Below, in pieces: positions 21,144-23,245 of a stretch of DNA of 38,955 bases (position 1 is the stretch's first letter; each line of letters begins with the position of its first letter). The translations under genes were made by a program, and so were the position numbers. Source of the DNA: Anaerolineae bacterium (lineage in GTDB: Bacteria > Chloroflexota > Anaerolineae > Anaerolineales > Villigracilaceae); NCBI GenBank assembly GCA_018648605.1, contig JABGQU010000010.1:1-38955 (forward strand). Reading direction: 5' to 3'. The notes below the pieces were generated by a model. That model searched no databases. It saw only the letters and a program-made list of their open reading frames with translations, and had not been told where the DNA came from.

Positions 21144-22730
21144 ATGAATGTTACAACCCCCTTTCCTGATGATTATTGGCAATCGCTAAAAATCAAAAAA
21201 AGCGATTCCGACTTTTTACTCACACATCTTTTTGAGTTAGAAACCCCTCTGGCTACAAATGATATGATCGCCGCCCTGATCTCTGAGCGCGTACGTTTTG
21301 AGCAAGAAGCAATTTTGAAAAAACGAAAAGGCTCAGGCAAAGTTTATCTCCCAAAAGAAAAATATAAAACGGGTGATGAGTTGTCTTTCTCGGCTTTGGG
21401 TTGGGAAAAAGGGACAGTCACCTCCTCGCGTGAAGGTAGTAATCCGCAAGTAGGAGCCTTTGAAGTTGCGACCGTTACAATGGAAGATAAAAGTGAACGC
21501 CTTTTTGCGATGGGCGTGGAAGAACATCCCTTGAATGATGTCAGCGAAACAGCGGATGCGGATGGACAGGTTGATCTCGAGGATATACAGAACCGCTTCG
21601 GAACCGCGCTGGAAGAGAAACTTGCTGCCGTTATACAGGCAGGGGATGAACTAGTGAGCATCGCTGGCTACTGGTTCCCACGTGCCCTTCTTGTAGATGT
21701 GAATATCGGTCACCTGAATCTAGCAGAAGCAATCCTCGATATGGCTGAAGGTGAGCCTCTTGAAACAGCCGTCATAATGAAAGATATCGACTTTCCGCAG
21801 GGTGATAACCCACACCTGACAGAATTTTCGCTCAACTATGCCTTGCAGGAAGACCCGCGTTTCGACGAAGTAGGCTCAACCGGAAAAGTACTTTGGTGCC
21901 TTGAACGTCTGGAGCCAGAAGAAGTCCGTCAAGTTCCTGCCTTATTGCGTTATGTCCCGGTCGAACTGGATCGCTCTACGCTTGATGCAGAGATGTTAGC
22001 TCTTGAAGCGCAATTAGATGATGAGCTGAGTAAGATCAGTATTACCGGACAGGCACAAAAAAGCGCAACGATCAGCTTGCTATACCCGCATTGGCGCTTG
22101 GGCACCTTGCCGATCTCAGAGCGGATTCGCTCCTTTTTCCCCTCTGCCTACGAATCCCCACGTATTCGCTTTACCCTGGTAGATGGAAAAACCGGTAAAA
22201 AAATGCCGGCTTGGGTAGTGAAAGACAGTCATTATGTTTTTGGTTTGAAAGAATGGTACGAAGAAAAAGGCTTGCTTCCCGGTAATTTGATCGATATCAG
22301 GCACGGCAAGGCTCCCGGCGAAGTTATTATCGAAGCACAGTCACATCGCAGTAAACGTGATTGGGTGCGCACAGTAATTACAGGGTCAGATGGTGGTTTG
22401 GTTTTTGCTGCGCTCAAGCAATCTATAAACGCCAAGTATGATGAACGGATGATGCTTGCTATTCCCGATCCAGACGCACTTGACAACGCTTGGAGAGCAG
22501 CGCAGGAAAGCAACCAAAAATTTGAGACCCTGGTTCGTAAAGTTATGAAAGAGCTGACTAAACTTAACCCGCAAGCGCATGTCCATGCTCAGGACTTATA
22601 TTCAGCAGTGAATTTATTGAAACGCTGTCCGCCCGCGCCACTATTTAGCTTGCTGGCAACACAGCCTTGGGTCACACATGTTGGCGATCTCTACTTTCAC
22701 TTGGATGAAGAAACTCAGGAAGAGGTCTAG
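21144..22730 (+). CDS. Conserved-looking protein of unknown function, 528 residues
   Basis: The family is not recognised. It is a soluble, acidic protein with no signal peptide. An N-terminal helical segment (about 20-60, LLTHLFELETPLATNDMIAAL) looks like a winged-helix start. A middle part (about 65-125) is rich in beta-strands and charged residues (KYKTGDELSFSALGWEKGTV). A long alpha/beta region follows, with WRLGTLPISERIRSFFPSA and GLLPGNLIDIRHGKAPGEVII (about 300-400). The C-terminus (about 470-525, HAQDLYSAVNLLKRCPPAPLFSLL...WVTHVGDLYFHLDE) looks like a HARE-HTH/winged-helix segment. This suggests a nucleic-acid-associated protein, by inference only. It is followed one base later by a second unknown gene carrying another helix-turn-helix-like tail. 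Confidence 0.85.
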   Translation: MNVTTPFPDDYWQSLKIKKSDSDFLLTHLFELETPLATNDMIAALISERVRFEQEAILKKRKGSGKVYLPKEKYKTGDELSFSALGWEKGTVTSSREGSNPQVGAFEVATVTMEDKSERLFAMGVEEHPLNDVSETADADGQVDLEDIQNRFGTALEEKLAAVIQAGDELVSIAGYWFPRALLVDVNIGHLNLAEAILDMAEGEPLETAVIMKDIDFPQGDNPHLTEFSLNYALQEDPRFDEVGSTGKVLWCLERLEPEEVRQVPALLRYVPVELDRSTLDAEMLALEAQLDDELSKISITGQAQKSATISLLYPHWRLGTLPISERIRSFFPSAYESPRIRFTLVDGKTGKKMPAWVVKDSHYVFGLKEWYEEKGLLPGNLIDIRHGKAPGEVIIEAQSHRSKRDWVRTVITGSDGGLVFAALKQSINAKYDERMMLAIPDPDALDNAWRAAQESNQKFETLVRKVMKELTKLNPQAHVHAQDLYSAVNLLKRCPPAPLFSLLATQPWVTHVGDLYFHLDEETQEEV

Positions 22731-23165
22731 ATGTCTGAAAAAAAAGCGTTTAGCTTTATTAAGCCCGATCTGGATACACCTTTTCATATCGATTTTGCCT
22801 GGTGGCAGCAAAACGACCGAGATTGGCGTGTTTATTTGCGTTCATTGATGTGCGCAGAACACCAAGAAGTTTTTACAAATTGGCAAGATGACGAAATGCT
22901 CGATTGGGTTGATCCTGAAACTGCCGAAGTAAAGGTTGTGGACGGTTTCCAACACACACTCATGATGCACTGTGCTCTGGCGCCCGATTTCCTTACCGCA
23001 AAAACATCGCTGGTAGAATCTGTTTTTCGGCTTTTTCTCATCAACGGAAACCAGCCAAAGTCTGCGCGTGAATTATCAGAAGAATTAGGACGCCCTGAGA
23101 TGACGATTTTGAAAACACTCGCAGGCTTGCGCGTTTATCGCGGATTGCGCCCTTGCTCTACCTAG
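22731..23165 (+). CDS. Small protein of unknown function with HTH-like C-terminus
   Basis: This 144-residue soluble protein is not recognised as a known family. Its N-terminal 70 residues are rich in Trp and Asp (IDFAWWQQNDRDWRVYLRSL, WQDDEMLDWVDPETAEV). The C-terminal half (about 88-140, SLVESVFRLFLINGNQPKSARELSEELGR followed by MTILKTLAGLRVYRG) has the spacing of a winged helix-turn-helix. The ATG directly follows the stop of the 528-residue gene (TAGATG), so the two are translationally coupled and probably work together. tRNA-Arg starts 6 bp after its stop and may share the transcript. Confidence 0.85.
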   Translation: MSEKKAFSFIKPDLDTPFHIDFAWWQQNDRDWRVYLRSLMCAEHQEVFTNWQDDEMLDWVDPETAEVKVVDGFQHTLMMHCALAPDFLTAKTSLVESVFRLFLINGNQPKSARELSEELGRPEMTILKTLAGLRVYRGLRPCST

Positions 23166-23171
23166 AAAAAT

Positions 23172-23245
23172 GCCCCTGTAGCTCAGCTGGATAGAGCAAC
23201 GGACTTCTAATCCGTAGGCCGTGGGTTCGAATCCCCCCGGGGGCA
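23172..23245 (+). tRNA. tRNA-Arg(TCT)
   Basis: A full 74-nt cloverleaf. The acceptor GCCCCTG pairs with CGGGGGC, the D-arm has AGCTCAGCTGGATAGAGC, the T-arm GGGTTCGAATCCC, and the anticodon TCT is at 23206-23208 in loop CTTCTAA. CCA is not encoded. It reads AGA (and possibly AGG) codons. It lies 6 bp after the stop of the gene at 22731-23165. Confidence 0.97.

Follow-up and report, generated by a model that had tools for sequence, protein, structure and literature searches.

Organization of the Locus

The locus lies within a window of 38,955 nucleotides (the whole stretch of DNA analyzed) from an Anaerolineae bacterium. Two rightwards genes, here called A and B, are preceded by a promoter and followed by a tRNA gene and a terminator-like hairpin. 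The features are listed below, with the regions of the two proteins given in residues as well as in window coordinates.

21044–21072, + strand: promoter TTGAAG-N17-TATAAT 5' of A, 10/12 consensus matches
21144–22730, + strand: gene A, 528 aa, without family match
21144–21329, + strand: A residues 1–62, helical, possible winged helix 1; profile resemblance to A 185–262
21333–21539, + strand: A residues 64–132, SH3/tudor/CarD/EF-P-like small barrel, from model and structural superposition
21696–21929, + strand: A residues 185–262, acidic, possible HARE-HTH-like winged helix; region common to distant A
22053–22358, + strand: A residues 304–405, B3-like pseudobarrel (fold only), basic in Anaerolineae, without sequence support
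22506–22718, + strand: A residues 455–525, C-terminal helical segment, candidate winged helix only
22731–23165, + strand: gene B, 144 aa, without family match over cut-off
22851–22862, + strand: B Cys41-x2-His44, probable metal site half 1, from co-variation in 84 sequences
22968–22973, + strand: B His80-Cys81, probable metal site half 2, from co-variation in 84 sequences
23004–23162, + strand: B residues 92–144, basic winged-helix-like domain, from model, superposition and charge
23172–23246, + strand: tRNA-Arg(TCT), starting 6 bp after B
23286–23329, + strand: terminator-like 20-bp hairpin 3' of the tRNA, -34.3 kcal/mol, z -10.5

The TAG stop codon of A directly abuts the ATG start codon of B (TAGATG), with 0 bases between them. 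These coordinates agree with a first-pass annotation made from the sequence, which had described coupled frames of 528 and 144 residues with tRNA-Arg(TCT) 6 bp on. Four places in the window's genome resemble this tRNA, and the anticodon TCT is found in the window's own copy alone; the other three are Thr CGT, Val CAC and Arg CCT.

Several neighboring frames were also read. An HNH endonuclease gene (20435–20938, - strand; PF01844, E 9e-15) lies just upstream of A on the opposite strand. A frame of 342 codons at 24484–25512 (+ strand) has no Pfam match at E 0.001 and overlaps the start of a divergent aminotransferase-like frame at 23366–24529. Further upstream, a single frame at 18000–19430 (+ strand) matches both an ABC-2 membrane transporter (PF12679) and SpoIIM (PF01944) and is apparently a fusion.

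Conservation of the Arrangement in Anaerolineae

Strong matches to the class B profile, among 84 distinct B-like sequences, define 67 distinct loci in the window's class, and at all 67 of them A lies just 5' of B on the same strand. A tRNA-Arg(TCT) gene lies within 1.5 kb downstream at 57 of these loci, on the same strand at 56 and on the opposite strand at one. The remaining 10 have no tRNA-Arg(TCT) in the available DNA, one of them having merely 83 bp downstream. Counted by genome, 37 of 40 relatives have A, and it is these 37 that also have B; neither gene was found in the other three. In a sample of 400 Chloroflexota genomes, the own-class genomes with A and those with B are the identical 54, and only one own-class genome (G303) is listed with neither. 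The A-B-tRNA arrangement is old, and the A-B pair is near-universal and single-copy in the class. Neither protein has a match on plasmids, and a search of phages with A likewise found none.

In one genome (G006), the contig starts 12 bases before tRNA-Arg(TCT), so that the A-B pair falls off the contig. A similarity search found no TCT tRNA in G013 or G303, and in G027 the tRNA-like match that was read is tRNA-Val (one of two matches, the second being 25 bases). Occasional loss of A or B in relatives was considered and set aside: the absences are taken as assembly gaps, and losses are not proven by them.

The first-pass annotation had proposed that the pair be checked for co-occurrence across genomes, and the counts above find the two genes together elsewhere, in 67/67 class loci and 37/40 relatives. 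It had also drawn the tRNA into the unit; there the conserved position stands (57/67 loci) and a functional link is unproven. The sequence distances of A and B correlate (rho 0.87 over 46 loci), but vertical inheritance alone would produce such a correlation between any two genes, and we do not count it as evidence of interaction.

Promoter and Transcript

The strong promoter noticed ahead of A in the window is supported by comparison, in its -10 element. An exact TATAAT is present within 150 nt upstream of A at 43 of 47 loci (47 genomes). Control windows taken from other parts of these loci contain it in 171 of 8694 cases (2.0%), and base-shuffled A-upstream stretches in 946 of 9400 (10%). 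The count of promoter- or hairpin-type pattern matches in the window's region is not above that in shuffles. GG or GT precedes the TATAAT at most of these loci, and a -35 element is harder to make out by eye. An AAGGC motif immediately ahead of the start codon of A (in the window, within 21128–21143) is kept in many relatives despite a variable leader, and may simply be the ribosome-binding site. A candidate hairpin in that leader, CTTGCTT..AAGCAAG, was rejected, folding no better than shuffles (z -1.2).

Whether the tRNA has a promoter element of its own depends on its distance from B. When the tRNA lies within 50 bp of B, a TATAAT occurs in the 120 nt before it at 3 of 44 loci; when it is farther away, at 6 of 12 (Fisher p 0.0017, with kinship of the loci ignored). 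A rare TATAAT of their own is what would be expected of closely placed tRNAs if they depend on the promoter of A, and the comparison therefore favors co-transcription of B and the tRNA. The shared transcript that had been proposed from the window gains comparative support in this way, of a kind drawn from sequence. A script search found a terminator-like hairpin after the tRNA at 10 of 56 loci, so by that test the terminator of the window is not general.

Searches for Known Families

Protein A has no Pfam match, and its best NCBIfam match is at E 0.18. All of the Pfam matches of B are below cut-off. The PADLOC defense profiles gave nothing for A and a best match of E 0.02 (ThsB) for B. Profile searches of the PDB reached E 1.1 for the whole of A, E 0.27 for B and E 1.6 (a myosin light chain) for the B3-like region of A, with no match for A 145–262. 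Foldseek returned nothing at E <= 0.001 for either model. Family-library scans of distant homologs (described below), 10 of A and 8 of B, recognized no known complex. Common descent of A and B from each other was tried and rejected, the profile comparison giving just 13%. In the literature, titles and the openings of abstracts yielded nothing on the A-B pair, also where the search was aimed at the class or the phylum.

Remote-homology and structure searches had been named in the first-pass annotation among the ways to check its view that the pair fits no known system. That view is upheld to the extent that no convincing match was found in Pfam, NCBIfam, PADLOC or the PDB sequences, and that no known complex was recognized. 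As judged from sequence and models, the pair appears to be undescribed, yet to be built from known kinds of domain as far as these are visible.

Protein B: A Possible Winged Helix and a Cys/His Site

The model of B has a pLDDT of 60.5, and its C-terminal winged-helix-like part is fair (block pLDDT 59–87). Residues 92–144 superpose on winged helices with Z of about 4–5, including a Z-alpha domain (Z 5.0 over 53 residues, rmsd 2.2). Weak Pfam matches at the C-terminus also tend toward this fold, to HTH_20 in 11 of 30 members, WH_GDS1 in 10 of 30 and TrmB in 4 of 30; all of these are under cut-off, and the best is at E 0.0019 (WH_GDS1). A HARE-HTH match (PF05066) under cut-off appears in 1 of 30 members at a best E of 0.022, and hhalign gives 25% for B against that family (pairwise, uncalibrated, 10 HARE sequences). 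The model thus suggests, at low confidence, a winged helix in the C-terminus of B. The likeness to the HTH_20, TrmB and WH_GDS1 regulators is weak, and B differs from them in having an extra Cys/His site and no recognized ligand domain.

The two halves of that site, a C-x2-[CH] motif and a later C, vary together. Both are present in 73 of the 84 B-like sequences and neither in 10, with one sequence mixed (kinship ignored). Among the 10 with neither half, 7 are substituted and 3 gapped. Of the 73, 69 have H or C immediately ahead of the later C. That the halves were lost jointly along several branches points to a metal site, and the predicted metal is probably zinc.

Protein A: Candidate Domains

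The model of A, made with AlphaFold2 from a seven-row alignment, is poor overall (pLDDT 45, pTM 0.25), and residues 71–130 are its sole fair part (block pLDDT 67–84). That part is a small barrel, at about 67–133, matching CarD (Z 5.4), EF-P (Z 5.2), tudor domains and the UvrD C-terminus, with a range of Z from 4.7 to 5.4. The CarD value is tied with EF-P and tudor rows, and the fold is generic. In the model, A residues 69–133 are like the RNA-polymerase-binding barrels of CarD and of the UvrD C-terminus, as they are like the EF-P N-domain and tudor, but A has no sequence match to the CarD-type barrels, and contact with RNA polymerase is putative.

For A 301–415, the first 15 structural rows are all B3-type or LlaJI N-terminal domains (Z 5.9–6.6); this includes At1g16640, listed as hypothetical, which we take to be a B3 domain. 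Residues 304–404 superpose on B3 domains with Z up to 6.6 over about 94–104 residues (rmsd 3.1–4.1), and 10 of the top 20 Foldseek rows for the A model are B3-type domains as well, with a best E of 0.12. All of the structural Z values for A and B are below 8, a level that the tool calls common by chance or a mere common arrangement. In superposition, the region is like the B3 domains of plant VAL1, RAV1, ARF and FUS3 and of the restriction enzyme R.NgoAVII. It differs from them in that its Z is in the chance range, its block pLDDT is 38–59, it lacks sequence support, and the distant A proteins are acidic there; nor is any nuclease domain recognized in A. Member-by-member family scans, covering 29 A proteins of the class and 10 distant ones, found no B3 match. 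The B3 family (PF02362) is over cut-off in 0 of 101 genomes, and the window's genome lacks even a match at E <= 1, in a scan whose sole control genome with a match was also under cut-off. A B3-like pseudobarrel together with an SH3/tudor/CarD-like barrel is suggested in A by the model at low confidence.

Other segments of A may be winged helices. Residues 185–262 have their best hhalign score against HARE-HTH, at 37% over 52 columns (pairwise, uncalibrated, 10 HARE sequences), a domain that occurs in RNA polymerase delta; A falls below the family cut-off, reaching a best E of 0.14 in 1 of 29 members. No PF05066 match occurs in the window's genome, while the controls Bacillus subtilis, Thermus composti and Lactococcus lactis do match. 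Residues 1–62 resemble 185–262 with an hhalign value of 79%, over just 29 columns. The C-terminus of A is modeled with a pLDDT of 21–41. Both proteins had been read from the window as ending in winged-helix-like segments, which is plausible for B 92–144 and unproven for this part of A. The whole of A is acidic (pI 4.9). In two own-class families (G163 and G124), A is a protein of 251–258 aa corresponding to the N-terminal half, and B follows directly after.

Distant Homologs Outside the Class

Among the 400 Chloroflexota genomes, the A profile matches 107 and the B profile 95. Outside the class, distant A was found in 53 genomes and distant B in 41; 0 have both, and the families do not overlap, although this mutual exclusion tracks the clades and the reach of the searches is limited, so that it is not proof of absence. 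The pairing proposed from the window is accordingly not obligate: outside the class, homologs of A and B occupy different genomes.

The distant A proteins are 530–702 aa long (20 loci read). They share regions 140–260, 300–405 and the C-terminus, and align poorly over the N-terminal barrel. No B was detected with them, nor any A in the 18 distant B loci read. Since the N-terminal half of A is kept with B in the two families of short A proteins, and the distant A proteins with their poorly aligned barrel are without detected B, B goes with the barrel-bearing N-terminal half. In 15 of the 20 distant A loci (L172–L191), a HEAT-repeat gene lies just 3' of A on the same strand (12 by a strict gap rule and 3 with over-extended starts), its identity being given by Pfam in 2 of the 2 tested. 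This gene, of about 305–400 codons, makes a second conserved, unnamed gene pair. At 6 of the 18 distant B loci (L123 and L135–L139), a gene that we take by eye to be moeA-like is adjacent to B or two genes away, and several other stand-alone B homologs adjoin macro-domain-like genes.

Charge separates the paired from the unpaired lineages. A 185–262 averages -12 per 100 residues in the class and is near neutral (-1.7) in the one-partner lineages. Net charge over the B3-like region is positive in 25 of 29 A proteins of the class and in 0 of 20 distant ones, which are acidic there; the winged helix of B is net positive in 64 of 67 own-class proteins and in 1 of 16 distant ones, again acidic. This net-charge pattern in the sequences fits pairing of A and B and is a single evolutionary contrast. 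Given the acidic distant forms, DNA contact by these two domains would not be general to the families.

Proposed Role and Alternatives

The absence of any recognized enzyme family, the vertical inheritance, the lack of plasmid matches (A, B) or phage matches (A) and the absence of any defense family favor a housekeeping DNA-binding complex. We therefore tentatively propose, at somewhat less than an even chance, that A and B are the two subunits of a non-enzymatic complex of Chloroflexota, inherited vertically, which binds DNA and serves transcription or chromosome maintenance; the complex, each binding event and the process are all inferred. A nucleic-acid-related pair, as first suggested from the window, remains the likeliest reading. 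In such a complex, B, with its metal-site region and basic winged helix, would bind to the N-terminal half of A. DNA would be contacted by a basic domain of each protein, the B3-like one in A and the winged helix in B, and the small CarD-like barrel of A could touch RNA polymerase. A and B would be expressed from one strong constitutive promoter, with transcription usually continuing into tRNA-Arg(TCT). A more specific version is rather unlikely as a whole: a lineage-specific, general transcription or chromatin complex in which a non-nuclease B3 pseudobarrel, a CarD-like contact with RNA polymerase and winged helices are combined, the partner is a zinc winged-helix protein in one class and a HEAT-repeat protein in others, and the system is wired to growth through a transcript shared with the tRNA-Arg that reads AGA.

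The HEAT-repeat gene that follows distant A at 15 of 20 loci raises the alternative that A, with its several possible winged helices, and B serve an SMC-like or other DNA-compacting complex as accessory subunits, with the HEAT-repeat protein as partner in other classes. Condensins carry both winged-helix and HEAT accessory subunits, and ScpB (Z 4.2, 51 residues, rmsd 1.9) and JetABCD (Z 5.4, rmsd 3.9) appear among the structural rows of B and A, respectively. However, those Z values fall within what chance can give and the HEAT link is missing at 5 of the 20 loci, and we consider this role unlikely. We would be similarly surprised by a role in RNA or translation, in which the SH3/EF-P-like barrel and the winged helices would have RNA or tRNA as their ligand and linkage to the tRNA gene would matter functionally. 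The tRNA near B at 57 of 67 loci, the mostly missing TATAAT at closely linked tRNAs and the match of EF-P N-terminal domains to A 67–127 (Z up to 5.2) would agree with it; yet barrels of this size are generic, the tRNA is missing from the available DNA at 10 of 67 loci (one with only 83 bp downstream) and on the opposite strand at one, and 0 of 18 distant B loci are linked to tRNA-Arg(TCT).

It is also possible that A and B merely have a transcript in common and are functionally separate, for example as two independent regulators. That distant A (53 genomes) and distant B (41) never overlap among the 400 would be natural for separate proteins, but their adjacency is unbroken in 67 of 67 loci and the charge of both proteins differs between the both-gene and one-gene lineages, albeit in a single evolutionary contrast; we give this account a small probability. 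Two coupled genes without family beside a tRNA gene, with an HNH gene upstream, might finally recall an anti-phage defense or other mobile two-gene system. Against this, the pair is near-universal and single-copy in the class with correlated distances (rho 0.87), PADLOC reaches only E 0.02, and plasmid (A, B) and phage (A) matches are lacking, which makes such a system very improbable.

Significance

The A-B pair is kept almost invariably across a bacterial class, with a strongly conserved promoter and no match in the family libraries searched, and is therefore a good candidate for basic cell biology that is missing from the model organisms. With the tRNA, it offers a clean example of protein genes and a tRNA maintained as what looks like a single transcription unit. 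If the B3 resemblance holds, a domain of plants and restriction enzymes would be found inside a housekeeping bacterial regulator. Should the pair turn out to act on RNA polymerase or on the chromosome, a large and little-studied phylum would have its own lineage-specific counterpart of CarD, delta or the nucleoid proteins.
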